Shown: one piece after another, positions 1 through 19,539 of the stretch
Layout of the letters: every line of letters starts with the position of its first letter
How positions within the stretch are numbered: position 1 is the first letter of the stretch
From: Desulfuromonadales bacterium
GTDB taxonomy: Bacteria > Desulfobacterota > Desulfuromonadia > Geobacterales > Pseudopelobacteraceae
Direction: 5' to 3'
Assembly (NCBI GenBank): GCA_013349405.1
Contig: DUZS01000024.1
Span: 1 to 55,172, forward strand
DNA length: 55,172 nt
Program-made: the position numbers and the translations under genes
The notes under the pieces: generated by a model
What the model saw: only the letters and a program-made list of their open reading frames with translations
Database searches by the model: none
What the model was told of the DNA's origin: nothing

Positions 1-151
1 ACATGAGCTTGCACCCCCATAAAGAGCAGTATTAACCGGTATTCTGGGGGGAGGCAAGAGTTAGATGGGTAATGCATTGAAAATAAAGCTTAAAAGCAAA
101 ATAAACGTCTAAAAGTTTGACACAACGATGAATTCCGCCGGGGGACACCGT
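1..151. other. Upstream flank of the glycosyltransferase island
   Basis: This leader is AT-rich and holds no convincing gene. A G-rich stretch at 46-54 could be a ribosome binding site, but the only ATG behind it (65) opens a 15-codon frame. The end of an upstream gene may lie in the first 35 bases, but no frame there is long enough to recognise. Confidence 0.4.
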
Positions 152-2563
152 ATGACATCACATACTATTGAGCTGACAATTTACATACCGACATTTAACC
201 GACATGAAAAATTAAAAAACAGCCTGGATATTATTTCAAAGGAGATACGTGGAGTAGAGGACAAAGTCCTGGTCTACGTGTCAAATAACGCATCACCTGA
301 CGGTACCCGCAACTACCTGGAATCTCTTGACTACCCGTGGCTGCACATCAGGCATAATCAGGAAAATGTTGGGTCCGCACTCAATATGCTTCACTGTTTT
401 GAATTGCCGGTCACAACTAAATTTGTCTGGGCGATGGGTGATGACGACTATTTGATGCCACATGCAATAACAGGCATTCTCTCCCTGATCAAAGAGTATC
501 CCGAAGCCGATTATATTTTTTGTAACACCAAGGCATTTTCCGAGCAACACTCTGCAGAAGTTCTGAAAAACTATTTTGAATCTGGAATCGTTGAAGGCGG
601 AACGTTAAAAAGTAAAAAGTACGTCGGAACTACGTTGGTGGATTTCGAACAGCTGATTGACCCTGATATTGCCGACACGCTGTTGGGCGAAGTGATGGTC
701 AGTTGTTTCAGGCAGTCCGCTGTTACATTAGATCCAAATGAAGCAATAGATTTTCACATTGATCGCGCTAACTGGGAACAGGTGGATTTCGTAACGGCTG
801 GAAAACTGTATCAACCGCATAATTTGCCATTTCTATGCAGCTTTAGTGGCAAAACCAAAGCTGTCTATTGCGATGTTCCCAGAACCTTTAATTTTTGGGG
901 TTCTGCAGAGTGGCTGGGCGATTATGATTATATATTTTCCGTAATAATCCTGTTTCTTATTTCTCAATACAAAGAACGCGGCTTCATCTCTGATGAGAAA
1001 TTCATCAAGCTGTTGGGCTATTATTATTCCATCATGGGAGACTCCCTCGCCAGATTGATTGACGGGAGCAGCACGGCACGACCATTCAATCCACTCATTA
1101 AAGCAAAAATGTTTGATTTTCTTTTTACCTACATGCGGGAATACCTGAAAGAATGTGGTGGAAGAACATTTCAAGAATACAGGGATAAGGAGGCATCACA
1201 TCCTTGCTGTGCGACATCTGGAACTATTCAAAAGACTGGCTCCTACACCACCTCCATCATCATCCTTAGCTGGAATCAACTGAAGCACACCAAGACCTGC
1301 CTGAATAGTATCCGCCAACATACCGATACCCCATACGAGATCATCTTTGTGGATAACGGATCTACTGACGGCACGCTGAAATGGCTGCGGGAGCAGACCG
1401 CACAGGATCCAAACTGCAGGTTGATTGAAAACGGCTCCAACCTGGGCTTTGCCAAAGGATGCAACCAGGGGATGCAGACTGCAAACGGCTCTCAGATTGT
1501 GCTGCTGAACAACGACACCGTTGTGACGCCCGGCTGGCTGACCGGTATGAGTGAACTGCTTGAGCGCTACCCGGATGCCGGGATCGTTGGCCCGATGACC
1601 AACAGTGCCAGCGGGGTGCAAGTGGTCGAGGATCCCGGTTATGGAACTCTCAATGAACTGCCTGCCTGGGCTGCTTCATTTCGCGAGAACAATCGCTACC
1701 GGGTTATCCGTCAGCGGCGCATTGTTGGTTTCTGTATGCTCTTCCGGCGCGAACTGGCCGAGAACATCGGTTTGCTGGATGAAAACTTCGGTACAGGAAA
1801 TTTCGAGGATGACGACTACTGTTTGAGAGCGGAGTTAGCTGGCTATCGCAACATGATCGCGGGCGATGTGTTTGTGCATCATGAGGGGGGAGCTACGTTC
1901 TCTGGTAACAAGGTGAACTTTGCAAATGCTATGATGAATAATCATCAGTTGTTTAATAATAAATGGGATCCTAAAAGTATGGATGAATCTACGCTGCGCC
2001 GCTGGTTGGTTCTTGTCGCAGTTGAAGAGGCTGAGCGGTGTTTTCGAAAGGGGCTTGTGGAGGAGGCAGTACAGATACTGATTCAACAAGGGATCAAAGC
2101 AGATTTATCGAGTAAAGCTCCCTATATTGCACTAACCGAAATTTTAATTGCTTCAGGGCGTTTTGAAGAAGCTCTTCAAGTCTTAGCCGAGTTGCCTGAT
2201 GGAGTCGCAGGTCTCAAAGCTGAATTTGAAGCGGTTTGTTATGCCGCACTTGGTGATGCTGTTGCGGCAACAGAAGCCGCAGAACGGGCACTCTCCGTGA
2301 GCGGGAAATATCCTCGGGCTCTGGTTATCCTTGGTACGTTAGCGGCACGTCGAGGAGAAACGGGGGAAGCTGAAGTTTTTTTCAGGCAAGCGATCGAGGC
2401 CGACCCATCCAGCGGCAGTGGTTGGCTGTCAGTGGGTATGCTCTTGTGGGGGAACGGGAATCTGGAGGGTGCATATCAGGCTGTTCGACAGGCGGTTGTG
2501 GTTGATCCGCTGAATGAAGAGGCTGTTAAAATTCTACGGGATATGGCTGAACGTCTTGTTTAG
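152..2563 (+). CDS. Double GT2 glycosyltransferase with C-terminal TPR repeats
   Basis: An 803-residue protein with two family 2 glycosyltransferase domains. The first (about residues 8-250) opens with YIPTFNR and has a GDDDYLM metal-binding motif near 95. The second (about 367-600) has the nucleotide-sugar fold start IIILSWNQ, the NNDTVV motif near 453 and FEDDDYC near 551. The tail (about 625-800) is Ala/Leu-rich TPR-like helices that probably mediate protein contacts. I chose the ATG at 152 rather than 128 because GGGGGA at 138-143 is correctly spaced for it. It is the first gene of a long same-strand glycosylation island that ends at a flagellin gene, so it may transfer sugars of the flagellin glycan in the cytoplasm. 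Its sugar donor and acceptor are unknown. A direct repeat begins immediately after the stop codon. Confidence 0.85.
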   Translation: MTSHTIELTIYIPTFNRHEKLKNSLDIISKEIRGVEDKVLVYVSNNASPDGTRNYLESLDYPWLHIRHNQENVGSALNMLHCFELPVTTKFVWAMGDDDYLMPHAITGILSLIKEYPEADYIFCNTKAFSEQHSAEVLKNYFESGIVEGGTLKSKKYVGTTLVDFEQLIDPDIADTLLGEVMVSCFRQSAVTLDPNEAIDFHIDRANWEQVDFVTAGKLYQPHNLPFLCSFSGKTKAVYCDVPRTFNFWGSAEWLGDYDYIFSVIILFLISQYKERGFISDEKFIKLLGYYYSIMGDSLARLIDGSSTARPFNPLIKAKMFDFLFTYMREYLKECGGRTFQEYRDKEASHPCCATSGTIQKTGSYTTSIIILSWNQLKHTKTCLNSIRQHTDTPYEIIFVDNGSTDGTLKWLREQTAQDPNCRLIENGSNLGFAKGCNQGMQTANGSQIVLLNNDTVVTPGWLTGMSELLERYPDAGIVGPMTNSASGVQVVEDPGYGTLNELPAWAASFRENNRYRVIRQRRIVGFCMLFRRELAENIGLLDENFGTGNFEDDDYCLRAELAGYRNMIAGDVFVHHEGGATFSGNKVNFANAMMNNHQLFNNKWDPKSMDESTLRRWLVLVAVEEAERCFRKGLVEEAVQILIQQGIKADLSSKAPYIALTEILIASGRFEEALQVLAELPDGVAGLKAEFEAVCYAALGDAVAATEAAERALSVSGKYPRALVILGTLAARRGETGEAEVFFRQAIEADPSSGSGWLSVGMLLWGNGNLEGAYQAVRQAVVVDPLNEEAVKILRDMAERLV

Positions 2564-2645
2564 CCTCGCGAAAAGGCCTCGATTTAGAATCTAAATCAAG
2601 AAGGACTTTTTGGTTTTAAATCGTGAAGTAATCGTGAAGCTAAAA
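2564..2645 (+). repeat. 80-bp direct repeat, copy R1
   Basis: The copy begins with CCTCGCGAAAAGGCCTCG directly after the stop of the first glycosyltransferase. It contains a 17-base palindrome, GATTTAGA-A-TCTAAATC, at 2581-2597. It ends with a short tandem duplication of an AATCGTGAAG element. It matches R4 (5303-5384) at roughly nine bases in ten by eye. A weak hairpin (2644-2661, AAAAGG/CCTTTT) follows. R1 is the left border of the hipBA module. Confidence 0.85.
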
Positions 2646-2675
2646 AAGGTTTGTGCCTTTTAGAAGCGCTGTAAT

Positions 2676-2733
2676 TGCATTGTATGTAATTCATTTTATC
2701 ATTGTTAAGTATGTATGATTTGTATATAATGCA
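2676..2733 (+). promoter_or_regulatory. hipBA promoter with flanking inverted-repeat operator
   Basis: A -35 TTGTTA (2702-2707) and a -10 TATAAT (2725-2730) are 17 bases apart. An imperfect inverted repeat brackets them: TGCATTGTATG at 2676-2686 and, on the other strand, TGCATTATATA at 2723-2733 (9 of 11 positions alike). HipB-type antitoxins bind such dyads over their own promoter, so this is a good autoregulatory operator candidate. The predicted transcript start falls at about 2737, the first base of the hipB start codon. Confidence 0.6.
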
Positions 2734-2736
2734 CTT

Positions 2737-2979
2737 ATGCTTATAGAAATAGGATCACAAATACGAAAAAACCGCGTAGATCGTCACATCACCCAGCAGC
2801 AGTTGGCGCAGGCACTGGGGATGAGTCGCACTACGATTGGGCAGATTGAAAACGGGATTATCCAGGAGATTGGGGTCCGAAAACTTATCCGAATACTGGA
2901 ATTCCTGGACCTGGAATTTCGTGTACGACCGGCAGGAAACCCGCCAACGCTTGACGAACTACATGAGGAGAACCTGTAA
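2737..2979 (+). CDS. hipB: HipB-like antitoxin, XRE-family helix-turn-helix regulator
   Basis: An 80-residue protein that is almost entirely one Cro/C1-type HTH domain (about residues 6-62, with QQQLAQALGMSRTTIGQIENG as the helix-turn-helix, split here as QQQLAQALGMS and RTTIGQIENG). HipB proteins bind DNA as dimers, repress their own operon and neutralise the HipA kinase. The stop codon overlaps the hipA start by one base (TAATG), as expected for a coupled toxin-antitoxin pair. No ribosome binding site is visible ahead of the ATG, and the predicted transcription start coincides with it, so the message may be leaderless. The gene sits between direct repeats R1 and R2 inside a glycosyltransferase island, which suggests insertion as a cassette. 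Confidence 0.85.
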   Translation: MLIEIGSQIRKNRVDRHITQQQLAQALGMSRTTIGQIENGIIQEIGVRKLIRILEFLDLEFRVRPAGNPPTLDELHEENL

Positions 2980-4172
2980 TGCCCGGAGTTGCAGAACTTG
3001 CGGTGTGGGCCGGTGCTGCCCGTTCAGGACTGCTGGCAAGAGAGGCACACAACAGGCATATATTTGCGTATTCTCAGGGCTATGCGGGGGATGTTGTATC
3101 TCTCACGATGCCGGTCAGGTTAGAGAGTTGGGCCTGCCGCGAACTTCACCCCGTTTTTCAGATGAATCTTCCGGAAGGGGCGCTCCTTGAAGCAATACGG
3201 AAGGCGATTGCGAAACTGATTGGCGATGATGATCTTTCACTGCTGCGCGTTACGGGTGGAAATCAGGTTGGAAGGAATCGCTTCTCTGTGGCAGAGGCCG
3301 ATTACCCGACAGCTGTTGAGACAATGGAGTCTCTGGAGGAACTTTTATCCTTTCCTGACACGGTCGAACTCTTCCAAGAACTGGTCAACCGCTACGCTCT
3401 CCGCTCCGGTGTTTCCGGTGTCCAGCCAAAAGTCCTGCTGGGTGCGACACAGCGTGGAACGCTCGCCTCTGCCCAATATATTGTTAAATCCTGGGGCAGC
3501 GAATATCCCCAATTGGCAGCAAATGAGTATTTCTGCATGACAGTGGCAAAAAGAGCCGGATTGCCAACCCCGGAATTTTATCTGGCGGAGAATGGCGGCC
3601 TGTTTGTCATGCGCCGATTTGATCGGGACGAAGATGGCACAGAGCTTGGATTTGAAGAGATTTGCGCTCTGCAGGGGCTCTCAACATCACGTAAATACAG
3701 CGGTAGCTACGAGCGGGTTGCCAGAAGCATCAAAGATTTTGTTTCAGGTGAGCATCTGATGGCCGCGAGAAAACAGTTTTTTGCCATGCTGGTATTGTCA
3801 GTAATGGTGAGAAATGGAGATGCCCATCTGAAAAACTTCGGTGTGCTGTATCGTTCCTCAAGAGACGTGGTGACACTAGCTCCGGTATACGATGTAGTAA
3901 CAACCGCAGCTTATATCCAAAAAGATGTCCCGGCATTAACGCTGGCGGGCACCAAGAAATGGTGGCATCGCAACGTGCTTGAACAGTTTGCCATGACCCA
4001 TCTTTCGCTTTCAGTCGGGATGATATCTGATATTTTTGAGCAAATGTCTACGGCAACCATGGAGGTTCGTGGAGAAATCGCGTCTTATTGTGGTGACCAT
4101 CCTGAGTTTACTGTTGTTGGTGAACGTATGATGGATATCTGGCAGGAAGGTGTTGAAGGGCTACGGAAATAA
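2979..4172 (+). CDS. hipA: HipA-like serine/threonine kinase toxin
   Basis: A 397-residue HipA-family kinase. The N-terminal HipA subdomain (about 1-100) is followed by the flexible loop GVSGVQPK near residue 146, the ATP-site lysine region IVKSW and the catalytic signature NGDAHLKN near residue 279, then LAPVYD with the metal-binding aspartate. All key motifs are intact, so the kinase is probably active. Known HipA proteins phosphorylate aminoacyl-tRNA synthetases (E. coli HipA modifies GltX) and slow growth; the target here is unknown. GAGGAG at 2965-2970 is the ribosome binding site, and the start overlaps the hipB stop. The protein is somewhat shorter than E. coli HipA (440 residues). Confidence 0.88.
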   Translation: MPGVAELAVWAGAARSGLLAREAHNRHIFAYSQGYAGDVVSLTMPVRLESWACRELHPVFQMNLPEGALLEAIRKAIAKLIGDDDLSLLRVTGGNQVGRNRFSVAEADYPTAVETMESLEELLSFPDTVELFQELVNRYALRSGVSGVQPKVLLGATQRGTLASAQYIVKSWGSEYPQLAANEYFCMTVAKRAGLPTPEFYLAENGGLFVMRRFDRDEDGTELGFEEICALQGLSTSRKYSGSYERVARSIKDFVSGEHLMAARKQFFAMLVLSVMVRNGDAHLKNFGVLYRSSRDVVTLAPVYDVVTTAAYIQKDVPALTLAGTKKWWHRNVLEQFAMTHLSLSVGMISDIFEQMSTATMEVRGEIASYCGDHPEFTVVGERMMDIWQEGVEGLRK

Positions 4173-4180
4173 ATTAGTAG

Positions 4181-4242
4181 CCTCGCGAAAAGGCCTCGAT
4201 TTTGAATCTAAACAAAAAGATTTTTCGGCTTTAAATTGTAAT
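4181..4242 (+). repeat. Direct repeat, copy R2 (3' end diverged)
   Basis: The first 18 bases are identical to R1 and R4, and similarity continues through GAATCTAAA. The copy then drifts, and the tandem AATCGTGAAG element of R1 is degraded. It separates the hipBA module from the AbiEii-type module. Confidence 0.8.
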
Positions 4243-4262
4243 TAGGCGAAGAGGTTTTTTCT

Positions 4263-4559
4263 ATGATTGATGGTAATAATAGCCTCTTTAAAGCCCTAGC
4301 AGCCAAATACATTTGGTGGGTGAAGCCGGAGGACGTACTGAAACGTCCGGAACGAGTGGTTATTCAGGTAATGAACATTGGAGATTTTACTGATACGGTC
4401 GCTGTTATAGAATCTATAGGCGAAGAGCGGGCAAGGGAACTTCTAACCAATGCCGAGGCTGGTCAGTTTTCCCCACGATCGTGGCACTATTGGCATTATC
4501 GTCTGGGGCTTGCCGAAGTGGGAAACGTTGCACCATTACCGAAGAGAAGAGTCATCTGA
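4263..4559 (+). CDS. Small putative antitoxin paired with an AbiEii-like toxin
   Basis: A 98-residue protein with no signal peptide. Its layout (a Trp-rich N-terminal segment KYIWWVKPED, a helical middle with a run of acidic residues, and a SWHYWHYRLG segment near residue 77) resembles the small proteins that often precede AbiEii/AbiGii nucleotidyltransferase toxins (DUF6922-like). I infer an antitoxin role from position: it lies directly upstream of the toxin and overlaps it by an ATGA-type junction at 4557-4561. GCGAAGAGG (4246-4254) is the ribosome binding site. It lacks the winged-helix DNA-binding domain of classic AbiEi antitoxins, so it would be a different antitoxin class. No separate promoter is obvious. 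Confidence 0.6.
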   Translation: MIDGNNSLFKALAAKYIWWVKPEDVLKRPERVVIQVMNIGDFTDTVAVIESIGEERARELLTNAEAGQFSPRSWHYWHYRLGLAEVGNVAPLPKRRVI

Positions 4560-5239
4560 TGAATATCTTTGAGCCACATACAGAAATCTTACCCGATTCT
4601 CAACAATATGTCTGGCCGCTTTTGACGCCATTACAAAAGAAGGGGTTTGTACTGTATGGAGGCACAGCGGTTGCACTGCGCCTCGGTCATCGACAATCCG
4701 TTGATTTTGATTTTTTCTCAGATCAGGCACTTGATAAATCAGCGCTTTACAATATACTTCCGATGCTTACTACTGCCACTGTTATACAGGATGCGCCTGA
4801 TTCTTTGAGTGTTCTTGTGCCGGTTGATGTCTCAGCTGCAACAGAATACGTCAAACTCTCTTTCTTTGGTAACATCAATAATGGTCGCGTTGGCGAACCT
4901 GATGCGACAACTGACGGGACATTGGTTGTTGCTTCACTTGCTGATATGATGGCGCACAAGCTGAAAGTTGTTTTGCAGCGGATTGAGGCTAAGGATTATC
5001 GTGATATTGCTGCTATGCTGAAATACGGTATGGCACTTGATGAAGGTATGGCGGGTGCATCTGCCCTATTTGGTAAAACTTTCCAGCCGAGCGAGAGCCT
5101 GAAAGCGCTGGTTTATTTTGAGGGGGGCGATCTTGACACACTTTCAGATGATGAACGGGCCGTTCTTGTTATTGCTGTGAAAAAGGTCATAAAAATACCG
5201 CCTTGTATGATTCGCTCAAAATTACTTGTTGTTGCTTAA
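4559..5239 (+). CDS. AbiEii/AbiGii-family nucleotidyltransferase toxin
   Basis: A 226-residue protein of the AbiEii nucleotidyltransferase family. The signature GGTAVALRLGHRQSVDFDFF lies near residues 34-53: GG-T begins the nucleotidyltransferase fold and the DFDFF aspartates bind metal. A second conserved block, DMMAHKLKVVLQR plus KDYRDI (about 137-158), supplies the downstream catalytic lysine region. Characterised relatives add nucleotides to tRNA ends or otherwise block translation and act in phage-defence abortive infection. I place the start at 4559, overlapping the upstream stop. A longer frame from 4481 would run through the antitoxin gene and is unlikely. The protein is shorter than lactococcal AbiEii (about 300 residues). 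It lies between repeats R2 and R3/R4. Confidence 0.8.
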   Translation: MNIFEPHTEILPDSQQYVWPLLTPLQKKGFVLYGGTAVALRLGHRQSVDFDFFSDQALDKSALYNILPMLTTATVIQDAPDSLSVLVPVDVSAATEYVKLSFFGNINNGRVGEPDATTDGTLVVASLADMMAHKLKVVLQRIEAKDYRDIAAMLKYGMALDEGMAGASALFGKTFQPSESLKALVYFEGGDLDTLSDDERAVLVIAVKKVIKIPPCMIRSKLLVVA

Positions 5240-5244
5240 TTTCA

Positions 5245-5291
5245 AAGAAGGACTTTTGGTTTTAAATCGTGAGTAATCGTGAAGCTGAAAG
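5245..5291 (+). repeat. Direct repeat, copy R3 (3' half only)
   Basis: Only the second half of the repeat is present (AAGAAGGACTTTTGG through the AATCGTGA tandem element and GAAGCTGAAA). It starts a few bases after the stop of the AbiEii-like gene and runs almost directly into the complete copy R4. Confidence 0.8.
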
Positions 5292-5302
5292 GCAGGTTTT
5301 AA

Positions 5303-5385
5303 CCTCGCGAAAAGGCCTCGCTTTTGAATCTAAACAAGAAAGACTTTTTTTGTTTTAAATCGTGAAGTAATCGTGAGGCTGAAAA
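5303..5385 (+). repeat. Direct repeat, copy R4 (complete)
   Basis: A full copy starting with CCTCGCGAAAAGGCCTCG at 5303-5320 and ending with the two AATCGTGA(A/G)G elements. It abuts the second glycosyltransferase gene exactly as R1 abuts the first. This is what one expects if an ancestral single repeat between the two genes was duplicated around the inserted modules. Confidence 0.85.
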
Positions 5386-5399
5386 CGGGAATTTTGACT

Positions 5400-6827
5400 A
5401 TGCAACCTTCGCAAAAAAACAGTCACCTTGATGATACTCTTTCAGTCATCTCTGCTGCCGCCCAACTGTACCCCGATAGTCTCAATATTGCGCGCCATCA
5501 CGCCGAACTTCTTGCGCAATGCGGGCGTGATGGGGAAGCGTTGAAAGCCTGTGAAGCATTTTTGACAGACTTCGGGGTAGATGGAGAACTTCTTAGCCTG
5601 GCACTGCGGCTGCGTCAACACATTGGCTGCTACGAACGTCCGGCGGAAGCGGGTTCGAAGTCCGTTTCGCTCTGCATGATTGTCAAGAATGAAGAGAAGT
5701 GTCTGGCCCGCTGTCTGGCCAGCCTCAAGCCGGTGGTTGATGAAATGATCGTTGTTGACACCGGATCATCAGATCGAACGGTTGACATCGCTGCCGCATT
5801 CGGTGCCCGGGTATTCGACTTTACCTGGAACGGTGATTTTTCTGCGGCGCGCAACTATTCGCTCTCAAAAGCGCTCGGCAGATGGATTCTGATAATGGAT
5901 GCCGACGAAGTACTGTCCGAGCGCGATTATCCACTTCTGCAACATCAGCTGCACAGTTCTGCTGATAAACTGGTCGCCTGGAGTGTTACTACCAGAAACT
6001 ACACCAACCGGACGGAGTGTGAGGGGTGGCATGCCAATGATGGCAGGTATCCGGAGCAGGAGCAGGGCGATGGCTGGTATCCTGGCAAAAAGGTGCGGCT
6101 GTTCCCGGCGTTGCAGAATGTCCGATTCCGCGGGGATGTTCATGAAATGGTCGAGGCAGACCTGAGAATAATGGGGACCCCTATCGAGCAGGCCGATTTT
6201 GTGGTGCATCATTACGGTGAACTTGCCGATGATGATCGAAGAGCAAAACAGGTGCGCTATTACAATATGGGTAAACAGAAGCTGCTTGAACGCCCTGATG
6301 ATATCATAGCTGCTGTAGAACTGGCGTTGCAGGCGGGTGAGTTGGAGCTGTTCGATGAGGCGCTGGTGCTGTGGGACAATTTACTCTCACGCGGAATTAC
6401 GTCGCGGGATGTATTTTTTAACCGCTCATACGTGTTGATGGGGCTGAAGCGTTTCAATGAGGCATCGGACATGGCCCTCAAAGCCATGGAGGTCGATCCG
6501 GACCATAAGGAATCGGCATATAACTACGGCATGTGCCTGCTAAACCTGGCCCGTCCCGGACAGGCGGTGGCGTTTATCGCTCAAGAATCCGCCAAACACC
6601 CTGACTATCCGCTTCTCATGGCGCTGTTATGTGTGCTATATCTCTGCACCGGAGAGTCTGCATCGGCACAGGCCATCTCTGAAAAATTAAGAGCGGGCAA
6701 CTACGCAGTGACGGGCTTTGTAAAGGAGCGAGTTGCAGTTTTGGAGCAACTTGGTCACTTGACAACAGCACTGCGGCTTCGACAAGCTGCTGCTAAAATT
6801 CCAGCGACTAATATGGGTATCCAATGA
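5400..6827 (+). CDS. GT2 glycosyltransferase with TPR segments on both sides
   Basis: A 475-residue protein. A short TPR-like segment (about 15-80) precedes a family 2 glycosyltransferase domain (about 90-270) with SLCMIVKNEE at the start, VDTGSSDRT, and the DxD-type metal motif MDADEVLS near 166. TPR helices fill the C-terminal 200 residues. The architecture resembles TPR-containing GT2 enzymes that glycosylate polypeptides or work with partner proteins. I prefer the ATG at 5400. An in-frame GTG at 5373 lies inside repeat R4, so it is probably not coding. The end overlaps the next gene by ATGA, which indicates translational coupling. Confidence 0.83.
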   Translation: MQPSQKNSHLDDTLSVISAAAQLYPDSLNIARHHAELLAQCGRDGEALKACEAFLTDFGVDGELLSLALRLRQHIGCYERPAEAGSKSVSLCMIVKNEEKCLARCLASLKPVVDEMIVVDTGSSDRTVDIAAAFGARVFDFTWNGDFSAARNYSLSKALGRWILIMDADEVLSERDYPLLQHQLHSSADKLVAWSVTTRNYTNRTECEGWHANDGRYPEQEQGDGWYPGKKVRLFPALQNVRFRGDVHEMVEADLRIMGTPIEQADFVVHHYGELADDDRRAKQVRYYNMGKQKLLERPDDIIAAVELALQAGELELFDEALVLWDNLLSRGITSRDVFFNRSYVLMGLKRFNEASDMALKAMEVDPDHKESAYNYGMCLLNLARPGQAVAFIAQESAKHPDYPLLMALLCVLYLCTGESASAQAISEKLRAGNYAVTGFVKERVAVLEQLGHLTTALRLRQAAAKIPATNMGIQ

Positions 6828-8731
6828 TAACTCCTGACACCAAGGGGGCAGGATCAGCTTTGATGTGGTTTCTTGAATGCGCCGATCAGGCATTTGACTC
6901 CGGAAATTTTACGGATGCACTCGGAGAGTTTGAGTGCGCTTTAAAAATATCTCCTGATGACATTCAGGCGAAGACAGGTGTGGCGCTCTGCCTGATACAT
7001 CTTCGCCGCTACGCCGAGGCCATACCATTACTTGTGCAACTTGAAGCGCTGATGCCGACGTCCCTTCAGTTACAGTTTTTGCTGGGAGAATCGCTATATT
7101 GCACCGGTCGACTTGATGAGGCGGAAGTCTGCCTGAGTAGACTTGTTACGCAAGCCCCTGATCACTTCGATGCGCAAAACCGTCTTGGCAGAGTCTACAT
7201 GGATCTGCACAGACATCCTGAAGCAAACCAATGTTTTTCTACAGCCCTGGTACTAAATCCGCGACACGTGGAGTCCCTCACGTACATGGGCATTATGATG
7301 ATTCAGTTTTGCCAGTTTGACAATGCTTTGATCGCACTGGGAAACGCCCTCGCAATTGAACCGAAGAATGTTCTGGCACTGAACAACCTTGGCCGTGCAT
7401 TCAAGATGATGGGGCGACCTGAAGAAGCCACACTCTGGTATCTGAGAGCACTAGAGATTGCTCCCCGTGATGTCGGCATCATAGGCAACTATTTATTTGC
7501 TCTCAATTACTGTGCAGATCTGAGCCCGGAATTCGTCGCACAAGAGCACTTTCGTCTTGCTCCGAGTGCACACCGTATTGATTTTGATGCTACTCCCGTC
7601 CCTCTGCAACGGAAAGAATCCGGTAAATTGCGCATTGGCTATGTTTCCGGCGATTTTTACACTCATTCAGTTGCATACTTTGTAGAACCGATTCTTATAC
7701 ATCATGATTATGATACTTTTTCCGTTGTTTGTTATTCTCTTGGGACTACCAGTGATGCGACCACTGATCGCATCAAGGATTTGCCGTGCCTCTGGCGCGA
7801 TATGGTTGGAGCCGCTCCGGACGCTCTGGCATACCAGATTCGCGAGGACAGGATCGATATTCTGGTAGACCTTGCCGGCTACACCGCTGATAATCGCATT
7901 GGTGCGTTTGCCAGTTGCCCTGCGCCTCTACAGGTAAGCTGGATCGGATATCCCAATACGAGCGGCCTCCCGCAAATTGATTACTTTCTAACCGACAGTG
8001 TCTGTGCTCCTCCGGGTATGACTGATCATCTCTTTAGTGAACGACTCTGGCGACTGCCGAGAATTTTTTGCTGCTACCTGCCACCCATGGAGTTCCCTAC
8101 CGTTGTACCATCGCCGTATCTTGTCAACAATTTTGTGACATTTGGCAGTTTCAATAACTTCGGCAAGGTGACTCCGCAGCAGATCATACTCTGGGCACGT
8201 ATTCTCCGTGCGGTGCCTGGTTCCCGGCTGTATCTGAAGAGCATGTCCCTCGGTGATCGATCAGTTAAGGAGTCTGTTCTGGCACAGTTTGATGCGGAAG
8301 GAGTTGATGGTGACCGCATCGACATGAGAACCGTAACTACTACACCGCTTGAACATCTGCACGAGTACTCACGGGTCGATATTGCCCTCGACACGTATCC
8401 CTATCATGGCACCACTACCACCTGTGAAGCCCTGTGGATGGGGATTCCGGTAATATCCCGGGCTGGAGTTACCCATGCTTCACGGGTCGGTGTGTCTCTG
8501 TTACAGCATGTCGGTTGCGCCGATTGCATTGCTGTCAATGCTGAAGATTACGTAGTTCGTGCGGTTGCTTTGGCGCAAGAACCGGCTCGGCTGACCGCAT
8601 TGAGAACACAGTTGCGCGGAATGATGGCAAGTTCGGCTCTGATGGATGTGGCTGGAGTAACCATTGAAGTTGAAGCAGCATTCGTTGCAATGTATGAGTT
8701 GAAGTGCCGGGAAGGAAAGGGTGCTCCATGA
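6824..8731 (+). CDS. TPR plus GT41 (O-GlcNAc-transferase/SPINDLY-like) glycosyltransferase
   Basis: A 635-residue protein. About 235 N-terminal residues form six or so TPR units, followed by a GT41 catalytic region. The region starts RIGYVSGDFYTH near 268-278; the final His matches the position of the catalytic-site His of O-GlcNAc transferase. It continues with DILVDLAGYT, APLQVSWIGYPNTSG, FNNFGK near 447 (the conserved UDP-binding lysine) and DTYPYHGTTTTCEALWMG. All these GT41 signatures are intact, so an active UDP-sugar-dependent protein O-glycosyltransferase is likely. In the cytoplasm upstream of flagellin, the most economical substrate is flagellin Ser/Thr residues. It overlaps its neighbours by ATGA on both sides. 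Confidence 0.87.
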   Translation: MITPDTKGAGSALMWFLECADQAFDSGNFTDALGEFECALKISPDDIQAKTGVALCLIHLRRYAEAIPLLVQLEALMPTSLQLQFLLGESLYCTGRLDEAEVCLSRLVTQAPDHFDAQNRLGRVYMDLHRHPEANQCFSTALVLNPRHVESLTYMGIMMIQFCQFDNALIALGNALAIEPKNVLALNNLGRAFKMMGRPEEATLWYLRALEIAPRDVGIIGNYLFALNYCADLSPEFVAQEHFRLAPSAHRIDFDATPVPLQRKESGKLRIGYVSGDFYTHSVAYFVEPILIHHDYDTFSVVCYSLGTTSDATTDRIKDLPCLWRDMVGAAPDALAYQIREDRIDILVDLAGYTADNRIGAFASCPAPLQVSWIGYPNTSGLPQIDYFLTDSVCAPPGMTDHLFSERLWRLPRIFCCYLPPMEFPTVVPSPYLVNNFVTFGSFNNFGKVTPQQIILWARILRAVPGSRLYLKSMSLGDRSVKESVLAQFDAEGVDGDRIDMRTVTTTPLEHLHEYSRVDIALDTYPYHGTTTTCEALWMGIPVISRAGVTHASRVGVSLLQHVGCADCIAVNAEDYVVRAVALAQEPARLTALRTQLRGMMASSALMDVAGVTIEVEAAFVAMYELKCREGKGAP

Positions 8732-11079
8732 ATCAGAGTGGGGACTTTACCCAGGGGTGTCAATTTTTTGCTGCTGGGAACTACTCCGCAGCGGAGATTC
8801 TCTTCAGACGTTGTCTCCAGACGACGCCTGATGATGCCGACGTTCTAAGTGCGTTGGGAAGTGCCCTTGCTGCGTTGGGATCTTTGGATGAGGCCGCACA
8901 CTACCTGAACCGGGCTTGCCAATTACAGCCGGAGAGTGCCCCGTTCCATTACAACCGTGCCAATCTGTTGCGCAGGTTCGGAGATAAACCTGGCGCTGAA
9001 CGTGCGTATCTGGAAGCACTGCAGTGCGACCCGGGTCTGGCGGAGGCGTATCATGGCCTTGGTAGTCTGCACCTTGAAGAAGGTAAACTTGGAGCTGCTG
9101 ATGTCTGCCTGAAGAAGGCAATCTACTTTAAGAATCACTTTGTTCCTGCCCTCCACGACCTTGGGCAACTTCGCCAGAGACAGGGGGCGGCTAAAGAGGC
9201 TGAGGAGTTTTACCGCCTGAGTATTGCTGGCGATGCTGCCTTTCTGCCTGCACTAAACTCGCTGGGAATGCTGCTGTGCAAAGGCCGGGTCGAAGAAGCA
9301 CGACACTGCTTTGAACAGGCAATCAAGGCAGATCAAAACTATCTATATGCTCGCTGCAATCTCGCTGTGCTTGATACATGGTGCGGCAATTTCGATGCTG
9401 CAATCGCTTCGTTGCGACAGGCTGTTATTGATGCCCCCAACGACGGTGATATCCATTTCAACCTGGCACTGGCTCTGCTTGCGGTCGGAAGGTTTAATGA
9501 GGGGTGGGGCGAGTACGAGTGGCGCTTTGGCAAAACAAACCCGGTGCCGATGCGCTATGTCGAAATACCTCGCTGGCATGGTGAATTGTTGGCCGGCAAG
9601 TCAATTCTGATTCATGCCGAACAGGGGTATGGAGACTCTCTCCAGTTCATCCGCTTTGCTTCGCTTCTGGCTTCTCAGGGCGCGACAGTGCTGGTTGAAG
9701 GGCAGGACCAGATCATTACGCCATTATTGGCGACAGTTCCGGGAGTTGCAGCCACATTTAGTTGTGGTGAAGAACTGCCTTTCAAGCCGGATTATCAGGT
9801 TCCGATGATGAGTCTGCCATTGGAATTAGGTGTTGATGGGGCATATCCACCGCTTGTCAGTTACTTGCGTCCCCCCGAAGAGAGGGTGCGCTTCTGGCGC
9901 GATACATTATCGAGACTGCCGGGGCTTAAAGTCGGAATAGCCTGGTCTGGGCGACCGGAGCAGGAAAACGACGCTAACCGTTCCATCTCTCCGGAGCAGC
10001 TTGGGCCGTTATGTGGACTGGATGGCATCACTTGGGTCAGTTTGCAGTTCGGTCCTCATAAACCATCGCCACCACCGATATCCTTGTTCGACCCGACGGA
10101 TAGAGTTGTTGATTTCTGCGACTCCGCAGCACTTGTCGCCGGGCTTGATCTGGTAATTACAGTGAACTCTGCAATCGCTCATCTGGCGGGCGGTTTGGGA
10201 AAGCCTGTCTGGTTGCTGCACCATTGGAATTACGATTGGCGCTGGATGCACGACCGCAGTGACTTACCGTGGTATCCATCGGTAAAAATTTTTCGACAAA
10301 CATTGCCAGGGGTTTGGTCTTTAGTAATGGCCGATCTAATTGAAAAGCTAATCGCGCAAGACGTTTTTAGGGTATCGAACATGAAATCTCGCCCAAATTT
10401 TCAGGACCTTGCTGTTCTGGTTTATACCACTCATAAGTATAGGGACCGTTGTAATCTAATCGAGAGCAGTTGGGGTAAAAATGTTGATACTATTTTTATG
10501 GTCACTGACCAAAGTGACCCAAGGCAAAATTATATAAAAGTAACCAACAACGACACCTATTCTTCCCAACTTGAAAAAACTTTGTATGCGATGCTGTTTG
10601 CTCATAATAATTTATTACATTTAAACTGGTTTTATTTCGTATGCGATGATCGTTATGTTTTTGTAGAAAATTTATTGAACAAGATTAGTGAGCTAAATCG
10701 CTTTGATTTTTCAGTATATGGTCAGATAGGAAATACTTGGCCCAAGGATAAAAATTTATTTTACCCTTTAGGTGGGGCAGGAATCCTGTTATCAAAAATT
10801 ACTTTAATATACATTATAAAGAACATTGATTTGGATATGAATAAATGGATGCGATATGAATATTGTGACGTGGCTATTGGTGCAATATGCCAGAAACTCG
10901 GTATAAATCTGGTCAATATAGAGGGTATGTTTAGTCAACCACCTGAATTTTATTCAATATCAAATCCTGGTCATCATATAAATTTTCACTACATAAGAAC
11001 AAAAGAGCAATTTGATGCTTTGAGTTCAGTTGACAGTTATAGCAACGGTATTTCAGCAACAAAAGGACGCATTTTCTAG
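8728..11079 (+). CDS. TPR - GT9-like - Fringe-like triple-domain glycosyltransferase
   Basis: A 783-residue fusion. TPR units fill residues 1-260. A GT9-like region (about 285-545) begins HAEQGYGDSLQF near 295 and ends with the NSAIAHLAGGLG / DWRWMHDRSDLPWYP blocks. This TPR plus GT9-like unit has two paralogues in the window (22655 and 27782), and both stop where it ends. Here an extra 230-residue AT-rich domain follows from about residue 552. It shows FVCDDRYVF near 637 (DxD-type), GGAGILLS near 683 and YEYCDVAIGAICQKLGI near 710, in the order seen in Fringe-like (GT31) transferases. I place the start at 8728, with AAGGAAAGG just upstream and an ATGA overlap with the previous stop. The in-frame ATG at 10381 marks the fusion point. 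Confidence 0.8.
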   Translation: MNQSGDFTQGCQFFAAGNYSAAEILFRRCLQTTPDDADVLSALGSALAALGSLDEAAHYLNRACQLQPESAPFHYNRANLLRRFGDKPGAERAYLEALQCDPGLAEAYHGLGSLHLEEGKLGAADVCLKKAIYFKNHFVPALHDLGQLRQRQGAAKEAEEFYRLSIAGDAAFLPALNSLGMLLCKGRVEEARHCFEQAIKADQNYLYARCNLAVLDTWCGNFDAAIASLRQAVIDAPNDGDIHFNLALALLAVGRFNEGWGEYEWRFGKTNPVPMRYVEIPRWHGELLAGKSILIHAEQGYGDSLQFIRFASLLASQGATVLVEGQDQIITPLLATVPGVAATFSCGEELPFKPDYQVPMMSLPLELGVDGAYPPLVSYLRPPEERVRFWRDTLSRLPGLKVGIAWSGRPEQENDANRSISPEQLGPLCGLDGITWVSLQFGPHKPSPPPISLFDPTDRVVDFCDSAALVAGLDLVITVNSAIAHLAGGLGKPVWLLHHWNYDWRWMHDRSDLPWYPSVKIFRQTLPGVWSLVMADLIEKLIAQDVFRVSNMKSRPNFQDLAVLVYTTHKYRDRCNLIESSWGKNVDTIFMVTDQSDPRQNYIKVTNNDTYSSQLEKTLYAMLFAHNNLLHLNWFYFVCDDRYVFVENLLNKISELNRFDFSVYGQIGNTWPKDKNLFYPLGGAGILLSKITLIYIIKNIDLDMNKWMRYEYCDVAIGAICQKLGINLVNIEGMFSQPPEFYSISNPGHHINFHYIRTKEQFDALSSVDSYSNGISATKGRIF

Positions 11080-11118
11080 CGGATCAGCCAAAAATGATAC
11101 GGAGTGGAGAAATCTCAA

Positions 11119-11946
11119 ATGCATTCGCCGGTAGCAGTGATTTTTATTCATAGTGGTGACAGCGATTATCTGCGTTACAGCTTGGCGCAAGCAAGGTACT
11201 CCAATCCAAAGTCCCCCATTTACCTGATCGGCGATGAAGCGACGACTAATAAGTACGCAGAAGTAGAGCACGTTATATATTCTGACTATGTAACCTCTGC
11301 CAGAAAATTTGCGAAAATATATCGACACTTTAACACGAACTCCCCCTCCTTTGAGCTTTTATGCATGATGCGCTGGTTTATCCTGCGGGACTTTATGCAA
11401 CTAAATAGCATAAATATGGCGGTGTATCTCGATTCCGATATAATGCTTTACGAAGAAATACACTATGAACACTACCGTTACTACGATTTTGATCTTGCTA
11501 TAACGGGTGTTGCACCGCCGATTTTAGTTAACAATATAAATATCTTGGAGGCATTTTGCTCTTTTCTGGAAAATAGCTATTCTGATAAGGTAACGTTGTC
11601 AAAACTTGAAAAGCGCTTTCGGGTAATGCAAGTCGAGGGACGTCCGGGAGGTATCTGCGACATGACATTCTGGGAATTGTTTGTTGCCGACACTGATTTC
11701 AAGGTGATCGATTGGTCTCTTCAGTTTGATGATGCCGTGTATGACCGTAATATTCATTTATCTGATGGATTCGAGCTGGAAAACGGATTAAAAAGAGTCG
11801 TGTGGTGCGGCAATAGACCCTGTGGCATCAGGGAAACAGATCGGAGTCTGGTTCGATTCAAGGGACTGCACTTTCATGGCTATGCAAAAGAAGTTATGGG
11901 CGCATACCTTGCCGCTTCGGGTTCGCTGGAGGTCGATACGCCATGA
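11119..11946 (+). CDS. Putative GT-A-fold glycosyltransferase with DSD motif
   Basis: A 275-residue cytoplasmic protein. It resembles nucleotide-diphospho-sugar transferases: an N-terminal VAVIFIHSGDSDYL strand-loop, a MMRWFILRDFM helix, and YLDSDIMLY near residue 103 as the likely metal-binding DxD motif. I cannot assign a CAZy family. The ATG at 11119 has GGAGTGGAG at 11101-11109 at normal spacing; an in-frame GTG at 11104 falls on that binding site and is unlikely. The codon use is more AT-rich than the island average, like the Fringe-like tail just upstream, so the two may have arrived together. It overlaps the next gene by ATGA. Confidence 0.7.
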   Translation: MHSPVAVIFIHSGDSDYLRYSLAQARYSNPKSPIYLIGDEATTNKYAEVEHVIYSDYVTSARKFAKIYRHFNTNSPSFELLCMMRWFILRDFMQLNSINMAVYLDSDIMLYEEIHYEHYRYYDFDLAITGVAPPILVNNINILEAFCSFLENSYSDKVTLSKLEKRFRVMQVEGRPGGICDMTFWELFVADTDFKVIDWSLQFDDAVYDRNIHLSDGFELENGLKRVVWCGNRPCGIRETDRSLVRFKGLHFHGYAKEVMGAYLAASGSLEVDTP

Positions 11947-14642
11947 TGCAAAGCCCCCTTGATCAAATCATTCCCCCCGAAATCCGTGATGACGAGTTCT
12001 ATCATCTCTTACGAGATCTGACCGCTCGCGAGCCGATCATAACGGCTTTGGAAATCGGTTCCTCCTCCGGGGACGGCAGTACGGCGGCGCTGGTGGATGG
12101 TTTGAGCAGAAACCGGACTCGACCGATGCTGTACTGTCTGGAGGCCTCCCAATCCCGCTTTTGTCAATTATCCGAACGCTATGCGCAGACACCTTTTGTG
12201 CGGTGCTTGAATGCTTCCTCGGTCACGGTTGATAAATTCCCATCTGAAAGCGCTGTTGAGTTCTTCTGGCACAACAGTAAAACCAATCTTAGCCTGTATC
12301 CTCTGGCAACGGTGCTTAACTGGCTGCGGGACGATATCCGCTATCTCAAAGAGAGTGGTGTGGAGCAGGGAGGCATTGCCGCTATAAAAATCAGCTACGG
12401 TATCGATCGGTTTGACCTGGTGCTGATTGACGGGTCTGAGTTCACTGGTGAAGCGGAATTAGATGAGTTGATCGGAGCCCGATGGATCGCGCTGGATGAC
12501 ATCAATGCGTATAAAAACTTGCGAAACTACCAGCGCCTGTCGAAAGATCCCGACTATAAACTGATCGCTGAAAACTGGCAGTTGAGAAACGGCTATGCGC
12601 TCTTTCGTCATATAGAAGCGCCCCTCCCTGTTCATTTTTTTACCATCGTACTGAACGGTATGCCCTTTATGCCCCATCATATCGAAGCATTTCGACATCT
12701 CCCTTTCCGTTGGCACTGGCACATAGTTGAAGGTGCTGCCGAACTGGTTGCCGATACCGCCTGGTCACGCCCCAACGGTGGGTATGTTCCGGATAGTTTC
12801 AACCGTGACGGCCTCAGCATTGATGGCACGGGCGAATATATCGATCAATTGAAACGGCTTTTTCCTGATAATGTCACTGTCTATCGCAAGCCTGCAGGAC
12901 AGTTGTGGCAGGGCAAGCTGACAATGGTCAACGCGCCGCTGGATTCCATTCAGGAGGAGTGTCTACTGTGGGAGATCGATGCTGACGAATGCTGGAGCCA
13001 CGTGCAACTCTGCGCCGGCTGGCGCTTGTTCAATGATGAACCTGAGCGGACTGCTGCATTCTACTGGTGCCATTTTTTTGTCGGCCCACACCTTGTGGTC
13101 AACAGCCGAAATTGCTATAGCCAGGTGGCCGGACATGAATGGCTGCGGACCTGGCGTTACCGCCCCGGTTACCGGTGGGTGGCCCATGAACCGCCTCGCC
13201 TTATGTGCCTCGGGCCAGATGGAGACCGAGACATCGCGCGTCAGGCGCCGTACTCTAATGATGAAACCGAGGCCAAGGGGCTGGTCTTCCAGCATTTTGC
13301 CTACGTGACTGCTGATCAGGTGCGCTTTAAGGAAAAATATTACGGTTATAGTCAGGCAACCTATCACTGGCTTCAGTTGCAGAAAGAAAGAAATTTTCCG
13401 GTTCGCCTGGGGGACTACCTTCCTTGGGTTACTGACAGAACAACCGTAGATACGGTGACTTCTCAAGGCATTATACCGTTCCCTGTAGTGGGTAATTCAT
13501 GCAGACAGAAACAGATCTCTGGTGGGCCAATCATTATTGATGGTGTGTTCTTTCAATACTATGCTACCGGGATAGCCCGGGTCTGGCTCGCGCTGTTAGA
13601 GGAGTTGAGCGGAACCGGTTTTGCTTCACAGGTGGTTATATTGGATCGCGGCAAGACTGTACCGAGGCTGCCAGGCTATTGCTACCTGGATATTCCCCTC
13701 CACAACGAGTCGGATATACCGGGGGAACGGGCAATGCTCCAGAGGGTTTGTGGTGATCTCTCGGCGGCTCTCTTCATATCGACGTGGCATACAAGCCCCC
13801 TCTCAACACCAACGCTGCTGATGGTTCACGATCTGCTGCCCGAAATTTTGTTGGGAGAAAAACGCTTTGATGCTGGAAGATGGCAAGAAAAAAAGTTGGC
13901 AATAGAACATGCTCAGGCATTTATTGCCGTCTCTGAAAACAGTGCCAAAGATCTGGTCACCTGGTATCCTGAAGCGGGGATGAGGCCTATCCATATTATA
14001 CATAATGGGGTGTCATCGGCATTCAGGCCTGCGACTCCAGAGCGGATAAAGCATTTTAAAGAATGGTACGGTATAACCAAACCATATTTTCTTTTCGTCG
14101 GCCCCAGAGTTTGGTACAAGAATTTCAGACTGCTGCTTGACGCCTTCCTGTTATTGCCGGAACCGGAGGTATATTGTATTGTCTCTCCACACAAAGATAC
14201 GTTGGAAGGAGAGTTTGCCGGGCATCCAGGCTCCGCTTTTGTTCGTCTTACCGGACGGTTATCGGATGAAGATCTGGTGGCCGCTTACAGTGGCGCTGTG
14301 GCGTTGGTATTTCCATCCCTCTACGAAGGCTTCGGATTGCCTCCTTTGGAAGCGATGGCTTGTGGCTGTCCGGTTATTATAAGTACGGCGCTGGCCCTGG
14401 TTGAGGTCTGCGGCGACGCAGCCATACAGGTCAAATCAAATGATTGTGAGGCATTGGCGTTGGCGATGGTTTCACTATTAAACCAAAGACACGTAGCTGA
14501 GAATATTCGCCGCGGTCTTGAACGTGCCGCTGTCTTTAGCTGGCACCGTTCGGCGTCACAGATTGTACGTGCGATATGCACTCAACTGGGTGGTTCGCCC
14601 GGTTTAGATAAGATAATGTTAGAGCGCAAGCGGCCAATCTGA
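11943..14642 (+). CDS. Methyltransferase-like / glycosyltransferase / GT4 triple fusion
   Basis: An 899-residue protein with three modules. Residues 1-215 look like a class I SAM methyltransferase fold (ALEIGSSSGDG near 35, DLVLIDGSEF near 159). Residues 225-510 form a glycosyltransferase-like domain that starts HFFTIVLNGMPF, has WHWHIVEG and the acidic motif WEIDADECW near 343, and is clearly paralogous to the first half of the gene at 15370. Residues 530-899 are a GT4 (GT-B) glycosyltransferase with FLFVGPRVWYKNF near 716 and LYEGFGLPPLEAMACG near 792. One chain could therefore carry two sugar transfers and one modification. The three modules and both ATGA junctions support a tightly coupled pathway. 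Confidence 0.78.
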   Translation: MMQSPLDQIIPPEIRDDEFYHLLRDLTAREPIITALEIGSSSGDGSTAALVDGLSRNRTRPMLYCLEASQSRFCQLSERYAQTPFVRCLNASSVTVDKFPSESAVEFFWHNSKTNLSLYPLATVLNWLRDDIRYLKESGVEQGGIAAIKISYGIDRFDLVLIDGSEFTGEAELDELIGARWIALDDINAYKNLRNYQRLSKDPDYKLIAENWQLRNGYALFRHIEAPLPVHFFTIVLNGMPFMPHHIEAFRHLPFRWHWHIVEGAAELVADTAWSRPNGGYVPDSFNRDGLSIDGTGEYIDQLKRLFPDNVTVYRKPAGQLWQGKLTMVNAPLDSIQEECLLWEIDADECWSHVQLCAGWRLFNDEPERTAAFYWCHFFVGPHLVVNSRNCYSQVAGHEWLRTWRYRPGYRWVAHEPPRLMCLGPDGDRDIARQAPYSNDETEAKGLVFQHFAYVTADQVRFKEKYYGYSQATYHWLQLQKERNFPVRLGDYLPWVTDRTTVDTVTSQGIIPFPVVGNSCRQKQISGGPIIIDGVFFQYYATGIARVWLALLEELSGTGFASQVVILDRGKTVPRLPGYCYLDIPLHNESDIPGERAMLQRVCGDLSAALFISTWHTSPLSTPTLLMVHDLLPEILLGEKRFDAGRWQEKKLAIEHAQAFIAVSENSAKDLVTWYPEAGMRPIHIIHNGVSSAFRPATPERIKHFKEWYGITKPYFLFVGPRVWYKNFRLLLDAFLLLPEPEVYCIVSPHKDTLEGEFAGHPGSAFVRLTGRLSDEDLVAAYSGAVALVFPSLYEGFGLPPLEAMACGCPVIISTALALVEVCGDAAIQVKSNDCEALALAMVSLLNQRHVAENIRRGLERAAVFSWHRSASQIVRAICTQLGGSPGLDKIMLERKRPI

Positions 14643-14665
14643 TATTTCTGAAAAGAGACTACGAC

Positions 14666-15373
14666 ATGGGAATGATTAAGGAAACCTGGGGTGCTCTTTA
14701 CATGGTGTGGGGTGATTCCCATGATCAGTTGCTCGAACGCTCCATAAATTCTCTAAAATTATATCATCCCGATCTGCCTATACATGTCCACAGGGTTGAA
14801 GATACTAATAATGACAGTGCTTCGGCAGTTATGTTTCTCGTCAAAGCAGCCATGGCCAAACTTTCTCCTTTTGAAAATACATTGTATCTTGATGCGGATA
14901 CTATTGTTATGGGGCCATTGGACTATGGTTTCGCGAAAGCCGAGCAATTCGGAATTGCCTGTTGTATCTGCGAATGCCCGTGGGCACAACGCTATACAGG
15001 GCTCAAGCATATGGACGGTCTGGTGGAATATAATACCGGTGTCCTCTTTTTTACCAAAAAAGCGCAACCTTCATTGTATTTGTGGGAACAGTTAGCACGA
15101 GTGACCGATTCTTCCGTCCGCTATAACGACGAACAGGGAGAGAATGTTATGGATCATAACGATCAGGCAGCCTTTGCCAGGGCAATAGAGATGACTGGTT
15201 TTAACCCGTATGTGTTGCCGATTAACTGGAATCTCCGCCCCAGATGGCAGCGGTCCTTTTTCGGCCCGCTCCGGATCTGGCATGATGTTGCGCCTCCTCC
15301 TCCAGAATTAGCTTCCGTGAACTCATATTATGATAAAGAAGATCCCATCTTCTTTGAATTGAGAATGACATGA
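14666..15373 (+). CDS. GT8-like glycosyltransferase
   Basis: A 235-residue protein with a GT-A fold. ALYMVWGDSH opens the nucleotide-binding strand, and LYLDADTIVMG near residue 74 carries the DxD metal site. YNTGVLFF and a DHNDQAAFA segment match the downstream catalytic region of GT8-like and related nucleotide-sugar transferases. AAGAG at 14652-14656 may be the ribosome binding site. It is followed by an ATGA overlap with the next gene. The sugar is unknown. Confidence 0.7.
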   Translation: MGMIKETWGALYMVWGDSHDQLLERSINSLKLYHPDLPIHVHRVEDTNNDSASAVMFLVKAAMAKLSPFENTLYLDADTIVMGPLDYGFAKAEQFGIACCICECPWAQRYTGLKHMDGLVEYNTGVLFFTKKAQPSLYLWEQLARVTDSSVRYNDEQGENVMDHNDQAAFARAIEMTGFNPYVLPINWNLRPRWQRSFFGPLRIWHDVAPPPPELASVNSYYDKEDPIFFELRMT

Positions 15374-16899: not shown

Positions 16900-16953
16900 T
16901 AATTCAATTCCGTAGTCACCTTTAAATAGAGAATTATACAGGATAGGTGCGCA

Positions 16954-17565: not shown

Positions 17566-17590
17566 TTTTATTCGCTGACGAGGGTGAATT

Positions 17591-18181: not shown

Positions 18182-18232
18182 ATGCACGCTGGTTTATAGC
18201 GTTGCGGAGTATCATCGGGAAAAAGGAAATCT

Positions 18233-19514: not shown

Positions 19515-19539
19515 GCAATAATCACCGGAGGAGGCTGAT

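Follow-up and report, generated by a model that had tools for sequence, protein, structure and literature searches.

Integron and superintegron cassette arrays are rich in toxin-antitoxin (TA) modules, and to our knowledge it is poorly understood how chromosomal TA modules relocate when they carry no transposase or integrase of their own. Here we describe a locus in which two TA modules alternate with copies (R1 to R4) of a repeat, an imperfect palindrome roughly 85 nt long, between two glycosyltransferase genes of a Desulfuromonadales bacterium. The locus lies in a stretch of 55,172 nt (contig DUZS01000024.1, assembly GCA_013349405.1), the whole of which is termed the window. As in integron arrays, the modules share one orientation and are separated by palindromic sites; unlike in those arrays, there is no adjacent integrase, and the sites elsewhere are single and dispersed. 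Miniature inverted-repeat transposable elements (MITEs) and palindromes like the enterobacterial repetitive intergenic consensus (ERIC) resemble the family in length, inverted ends, non-coding nature and dispersal; a target-site duplication was not seen at the one site compared. We know of no cognate transposase for the palindrome.

Repetitive extragenic palindromic (REP) sequences, bacterial interspersed mosaic elements (BIMEs) and the TnpA-REP systems, whose enzymes are REP-associated tyrosine transposases (RAYTs), are likewise described as extragenic imperfect palindromes that occur in both orientations, near gene ends and sometimes in tandem (PMC8266576, PMC3733652). The present family departs from REP sequences in its length (about 85 nt against 20-40 nt) and in having only about 20 copies; it also has no constant GTAG or CGTC tag, its left ends reading CTTAG, TTTAG, TAAG, GTAG and others. 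It differs from RAYT systems in that the one Y1 transposase gene found in its genome has no repeat in the 4.2 kb around it. Geobacter genomes carry intergenic multicopy nucleotide sequences, some of them palindromic (G. metallireducens, PMC2700814; G. bemidjiensis, PMC2996986). As the available portions of these reports present them, they too are dispersed, often with several per region and some inside genes; compared by description rather than by sequence, neither this family nor an alternation with TA modules appears in those portions. A search of an open-access library, judged by titles and abstract openings, found no paper that joins such repeats with TA modules.

The array and its empty site

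The window's own genome, a 3.43-Mb draft, is designated G000; relatives are given as G, contigs as C and the stretches examined as L, each with a number. The locus has the following features.

128..2563, + strand: upstream glycosyltransferase half, 811 aa, two GT2-type domains and a TPR tail (Pfam Glycos_transf_2 in two stretches, and TPR)
2559..5423, no strand assigned: inserted segment of 2,865 bp, replacing 2 nt of the fused gene of G123
2559..2651, + strand: R1, full imperfect palindrome of about 85 nt (repeat comparison, model match, folding)
2737..2979, + strand: hipB-like antitoxin gene, HTH_3, 80 aa (Pfam, ORF list, NCBIfam scan)
2979..4172, + strand: hipA-like kinase toxin gene, 397 aa (Pfam HipA_C 162 bits, Couple_hipA 55 bits)
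4176..4242, + strand: R2, intact left half (35 of 35 to consensus) and degraded right half (24-nt match, p=0.008)
4263..4559, + strand: partner open reading frame (ORF), 98 aa, no known family
4559..5239, + strand: AbiEii-like nucleotidyltransferase gene, 226 aa (Pfam AbiEii, PADLOC)
5243..5298, + strand: R3, right half alone, directly behind the AbiEii stop codon and in tandem with R4
5299..5393, + strand: R4, full palindrome (repeat comparison, model match, folding)
5400..6827, + strand: downstream glycosyltransferase half, 475 aa, TPR-GT2-TPR (Pfam; ATG at 5400)

The closest genome homologue of the upstream half that was found, in G123, is 77% identical over aa 375-810 and forms a single ORF with the downstream half (identities: GT domain 82%, TPR tail 72%, downstream half 53%). 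In its DNA the empty site is almost exact: 142 of 178 bases are identical up to window position 2558, 2 nt follow, and 74 of 117 bases are identical from 5424 onwards. With these two bases between the window flanks, the reading frame closes. G006 concurs, with 13 nt between window positions 2553 and 5430 and slightly shorter flanks. The start of R1 falls at 2559 by repeat search and at 2560 by the model, with a well-conserved AG at 2562; since homology ends at 2558, no more than about 1-4 nt separate the left edge of the insertion from that of R1. No target-site duplication was seen at this one empty site (G123, G006), where flank identities of 80% and 63% could hide a short one. On the right, the downstream frame is already open from a GTG at 5373 within R4.

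The joined form of the gene prevails among relatives. The homologues of the two flanking ORFs lay in one stop-free ORF in all nine relatives with a nearly full-length downstream-half match, the other 29 relatives giving short domain matches only and standing outside this count. An order-wide search matched 43 other genomes, of which loci were examined for 29 (5 already in the earlier set), and the ORF was joined in 23 of the 24 further loci, the second part being in another frame in G088. Pooled, the joined form is a single ORF in 32 of 33 relatives examined. The repeat was absent from the joint in 27 order-wide loci and in 6 larger loci from relatives. In a protein search that gave 518 upstream-half homologues at E<=1e-60, the best 120 comprised 92 fused proteins (91 by a stricter criterion), 14 that end at the joint, one of them the window's own, 2 that continue differently and 12 without the tail. 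The joint is thus also a natural protein boundary in this modular glycosyltransferase family, although the fused gene of the close relative G123 speaks for fission in the window.

An 18-base core, reported at 2564, 4181 and 5303 in a preliminary description of this locus, was confirmed there as exact matches to CCTCGCGAAAAGGCCTCG, all on the + strand, and no other site in the window lies within 3 mismatches (chance expectation 0.08; three copies in none of 100 shuffles). The core is the left arm of the palindrome, AGCCTCRCGA ... TCGTGAGGCT, which also has an inner arm pair, TCGATTTTAAA / TTTAAATCG, with 8-nt loops between. R1 (2559-2649) and R4 (5298-5388) are 85% identical over 91 nt, R2 and R3 match model positions 2-66 and 27-84, and all four have the + strand of the window genes. 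That description also had R1 abutting the glycosyltransferase gene. The contact is real, and it arises because the TAG at the left end of R1 (2561-2563) serves as the stop codon of the upstream ORF.

Of the two TA modules that had been proposed, hipBA and AbiEii are borne out by Pfam, and the second gene of the AbiEii pair is of no known family. Between R1 and R2, a predicted HTH antitoxin gene precedes a hipA-like gene with N- and C-terminal HipA domains, the same kinase and antitoxin combination as in type II hipBA modules, and the hipA-like product aligns with solved HipT/HipA kinases. The AbiEii-like protein (PF08843, 53 bits against a cut-off of 22.5; PADLOC AbiEii, E=1.1e-6) had no NCBIfam match at E<=0.1 and no solved-structure relative at E<=1. 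As in type IV AbiE systems, this nucleotidyltransferase belongs to a two-gene unit, its gene start overlapping the partner stop by one base; the upstream partner, however, is not AbiEi. Because the 98-aa product found no Pfam match even at E<=10, and none in NCBIfam or PADLOC at E<=0.1, this is not a canonical AbiE pair. A similar ORF stands directly before the AbiEii gene of G008, in a pair that is preceded by an ATPase-like ORF (by resemblance). Encoded before AbiEii in these two genomes, the 98-aa protein is a candidate antitoxin unlike AbiEi. The AbiEii gene itself has a left half of the repeat (R2) in front of it and a right half (R3) behind it.

A dispersed palindrome family

The repeat occurs throughout G000. 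Within 2 mismatches the 18-mer was found in 15 places, 12 of them outside the window (reversed control, 1), and a 22-mer of the right arm in 16 places within 3 mismatches (control, 0). A full-length model built from 17 copies gave 19 matches, of which three belong to the window and 16 to 15 other loci, a tandem pair on C2 being counted as one locus. The matches are intergenic, dispersed imperfect palindromes, as REP-type elements are. Their neighbours include genes for ALAD, UvrA, ClpB, DAP epimerase, an ABC transporter, a phosphorylase and similar proteins, and one copy outside the window adjoins a GDP-mannose dehydratase/epimerase-like gene. Weak P-loop labels with TA wording (AAA_21 'AbiEii' on the ABC transporter and UvrA, Zeta_toxin on ClpB) were taken as name artefacts. 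One copy, between a tetR gene and uvrA, has a counterpart in a G018 neighbourhood, judged from the look of the neighbours, and some copies are therefore old. Two contigs (L042:1-240 and L044:1-240) start with the same approximately 110 nt, which end in a terminator-like hairpin, perhaps the end of an rRNA operon, and are followed by a repeat copy.

The AGCCTCRCGA/TCGTGAGGCT arms pair in most folds, R2 excepted, and thus form terminal inverted repeats on a non-coding element, as in MITEs. Four of eight copies folded, as DNA, well beyond shuffled sequences (z -4.4, -4.6, -3.2 and -3.3), the G044 copy not significantly so (z -0.45). An RNA role is unsupported, the consensus fold having 14 pairs and 1 compensatory change, and for that reason the second repeat model was made sequence-only. 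Rfam and tRNA searches of the window gave no match, and we conclude that this is neither a tRNA-site insertion nor a known RNA family.

With the first model the family was found in 8 of 38 sampled relatives; of 38 genomes of the genus besides G000, 11 had it by the sequence-only model (E<=0.01). An exact 26-mer matched a single record in the named collection, Pelotalea chapellei; the window's own genome is possibly outside that collection. The host is thus probably related to this species, within the Geobacterales. In P. chapellei (L046:1640-1850) a repeat copy lies inside another repeat-like stretch of TCTGCGTTACTCTGCGACTCCGCGTGAG type, perhaps as nested repeats. In G018 and G015 (L138, L139, L140, L147, L149) there is a palindrome variant made up of several direct units that resemble TTCACGATTAC, and the genes next to it look ordinary.

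Is the array then a chance meeting of a REP-like family with common TA genes, no process being involved? Both are frequent, and G000 has a TA-free repeat pair 1.6 kb apart, and a pair at that distance or less has a chance probability of 0.13. When 18 copies were placed at random, by contrast, three fell within 2.83 kb with a simulated p of 0.0017, so that the local clustering exceeds chance; coincidence would also leave unexplained the nearly exact breakpoint and a second array that has a single-unit counterpart (see below). We regard it as very improbable.

No transposase or integrase was identified for the window array, and no cognate enzyme was found for the palindrome. The single Y1_Tnp match in G000 (C9:99599) has no repeat in the surrounding 4.2 kb (L045), which leaves a RAYT-driven REP element unsupported; nor was there a repeat match in the 3.9-kb stretch L175 around a Y1_Tnp gene in the TA region of G013. 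An integron-like array, in which the palindromes would act as attC-type sites and an integrase would string TA cassettes together, has in its favour an imperfect palindrome with symmetric spacers behind each module, the common orientation of the modules, and true integron integrases above the curated cut-off in two relatives (G013 C17:1167-2105 and G018 C25:15103-16041). In G000, however, every integrase match is below the cut-off. The best TIGR02249 match is partial (123.8 of 265 bits, C4:93217-93627, not on the window contig; with the two integrase genes of the relatives, L165-L167) and is possibly a truncated copy; 14 control genomes also give below-cut-off matches. The intI regions of the two relatives carry no array of this repeat (model R1: no match in the 14 kb of L172, one locus in the 13.8 kb of L171), and the other G000 copies are dispersed beside ordinary genes. 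On the integrase family search and these two intI loci we rule out an integron attC array, which we find scarcely credible.

Repeat arrays in relatives

A second site exists in versions with and without modules. In G013 the family accompanies TA-like genes on three contigs (C48, C167 and C176). Behind wzz (Wzz/GNVR) on C48, three units of about 200-300 nt (the palindrome together with the 3' portion of a small ORF) are interleaved with PDDEXK_2, Unstab_antitox/ParE and UPF0175-DUF3368 genes; ORF6N, ParE and PIN genes and a Y1 transposase lie beyond. On C176, pieces of the unit (1-99, 138-327, 1987-2162 and 4492-4622) alternate with NTase and PIN genes. On C167 an AAA_14/DUF4143 gene, which adjoins an ORF resembling HepT (resemblance only), has half-palindromes on either side, a left one (21-nt match) and a right one (45 columns). 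In G044 a wzz-like gene (47% over the 99 residues present on a contig that ends in wzz) is followed by one unit and then by Polysacc_synt_2 and DegT genes, with no module between.

Units are 88-96% identical within C48 and 82-98% in pairs from C48 and C176, as against 78-84% with the G044 unit (79-84% for the C48 units, 85% for one 34-nt piece), and because their mutual identity exceeds that to G044 we conclude that they were multiplied or homogenised within G013. Unit U2 carries the entire small ORF without the palindrome, so the repeated stretch is partly a gene remnant. A 74-aa ORF without a Pfam match stands at L134:7072-7296, and other units carry its 3' part attached to the palindrome, as though the palindrome had at some point inserted into this gene and the resulting hybrid had afterwards been copied. 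Stretches L134, L175 and L208 (G013 C48 and C176) form a long TA-dense sequence with ParE, PIN, UPF0175-DUF3368 and NTase genes and a Y1 (RAYT-like) transposase, in which the motifs AAAAGGTGCCTGTCCCC and GGTCTGACCCC are repeated.

Clusters of at least two copies within about 6 kb with genes between them number five: the window, C5 of G000, and C48, C167 and C176 of G013. TA-like genes are present in all except C5, a suggestive figure, being a count rather than an enrichment test. Such genes are also near 4 of 21 repeat loci in relatives, the three G013 contigs and G008 C221, where a HepT-like gene lies 0.7 kb from the repeat; the 21 loci are 14 plus 7, and two of the 14 are probably opposite ends of one copy.

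The modules might have come first, by illegitimate recombination, with mobile palindrome copies settling later in the new gaps. Repeats stand close to stop codons elsewhere too, for example 1-2 nt behind the gene end on C5 and C2, and multicopy sequences are described as piling non-randomly in the same intergenic regions of Geobacter (PMC2996986). Against this order speak the breakpoint, which is no more than 4 nt from where R1 starts, and the position of AbiEii, and likewise of the AAA gene in G013, between two repeat halves; we judge it unlikely.

A further alternative is that an array assembled elsewhere, in the order repeat, hipBA, repeat, AbiEii, repeat, arrived whole, either as a composite element with R1 and R4 as its ends or by homologous exchange with a single repeat that the linker already held. 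The insertion does have these two direct repeats close to its edges, the left edge being within 4 nt of the left end of R1, and of the copies compared the one most similar to R1 lies on a different contig (C35, 86%), R4 being less so (82%). No donor with the same order came to light, however. An AbiEii search of 39 genomes matched, besides G000, only G008, G013 and G014, and the loci in those three gave no repeat match better than E=0.41; the weak AbiEii-like match in G013 (35%, on C167) is separated from the repeats of its contig by about 2.9 and 4.3 kb. A target duplication was not seen. We consider arrival in one piece rather unlikely, if deserving of some weight.

Two further observations concern the window at large. 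A run of TPR, glycosyltransferase and methyltransferase genes at 8704-25348 and from 31766 onwards, from which five proteins were scanned, is a surface-glycan island, and multihaem cytochromes are encoded at 31766-33382 and 35629-37512.

Proposed history of the array

The account that we favour, at slightly better than even confidence, is that a REP/MITE-like palindrome split a GT-TPR-GT gene and that hipBA and the AbiEii pair then lodged at the repeat copies. The repeat is a member of a genus-wide family of imperfect palindromes of about 85 nt, which we take to be of REP or MITE type. One copy, or a tandem run, would have interrupted an originally undivided GT-TPR-GT gene within its TPR linker, the upstream half being stopped by the left end of the repeat and the downstream half beginning behind the last repeat. 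The two modules would then have lodged between and inside repeat copies, which may have offered homology for recombination or been favoured targets for insertion, and would have been retained through addiction and through their harmless place at a domain joint. The data show directly the repeat family, the empty site, the left breakpoint within 4 nt of R1, AbiEii flanked by a left and a right half-copy, and repeat-TA arrays in a second genome; from these we infer the order of events and a route by way of recombination or insertion at the repeats. Insertion at the palindrome centre would explain the pattern of left half, cargo and right half, of which there are two cases, one of them not clean; the local multiplication and the uniform orientation would follow from homologous recombination between direct copies.

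Several observations weigh against this account. At the locus itself, hipBA is not visibly inside a repeat, and R2 keeps a degraded right half, which is why the AbiEii pattern is the one that is not clean. About 30 nt between R4 and the resumed gene have no explanation, and the window copies fold barely better than shuffled sequences (R1 z -1.7, R4 -1.2, R2 -0.6). Of the 119 other upstream-half homologues among the best 120 of 518, 13 stop at the joint; a gene boundary there is accordingly not unique to this insertion and may have predated it, and the idea that fission is unique to the window is weakened. The spaced repeat pair on C5, 1.6 kb apart, encloses ordinary genes. A single genome, G013, supplies three of the four clusters with TA-like genes, and its contigs C48, C167 and C176 may be pieces of one TA-rich region. 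In relatives, 17 of the 21 repeat loci, mostly judged by eye, have no TA-like gene close by and stand beside ordinary-looking genes (tgt, uvrA, alaS, dapA/dapB and others).

Other such observations also decide what remains of the preliminary description, which had seen the repeat as the border of its modules and the array as the product of a cassette-like process. None of the 28 flanking proteins at the 15 G000 loci outside the window belongs to a TA family by Pfam (5 have no Pfam match; one side only was scanned at two contig-end loci, and the 131-aa ORF nearest the repeat on C3 was left out). A border repeat specific to the modules is ruled out by this genome-wide occurrence, which counts against the earlier reading because that description had itself named it as contrary evidence. 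Homologues of HipA (60% or more) occur in 19 of 38 relatives and of AbiEii in three (G008, G013 and G014), and 23 TA loci in relatives had no clear repeat in the flanks examined (one match, E=0.41); the modules are thus independent units. A single repeat between the same two genes was not found at this locus, since relatives have the fused gene there and no repeat. Both forms foreseen, one copy without modules and repeat-bounded units with other cargo, were found behind wzz (G044, G013), at another locus. The interleaving of three to four repeats with two modules does exceed chance by the simulation given above. What survives of the cassette-like process is the 2,865-bp insertion at the edge of R1 and the G013 arrays, a repeat tied to modules being lost; and a position beside surface-glycan genes is true of the window and the wzz locus but of few other G000 copies.

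A bolder extension, which we think distinctly unlikely, is that the palindromes are integrase-free docking sites, where modules enter at the centre and the split or duplicated copies serve the next arrival. A TA array of one orientation would grow in this way and load the joints of modular surface-glycan genes, leaving their domains intact.

At this locus a repeat-TA array divides a modular glycosyltransferase gene where two of its domains meet, with a nearly exact empty site for comparison, and another repeat site is available in loaded (G013) and unloaded (G044) versions. The role of the repeats can therefore be tested directly. Repeats of this kind may be places where TA modules collect.

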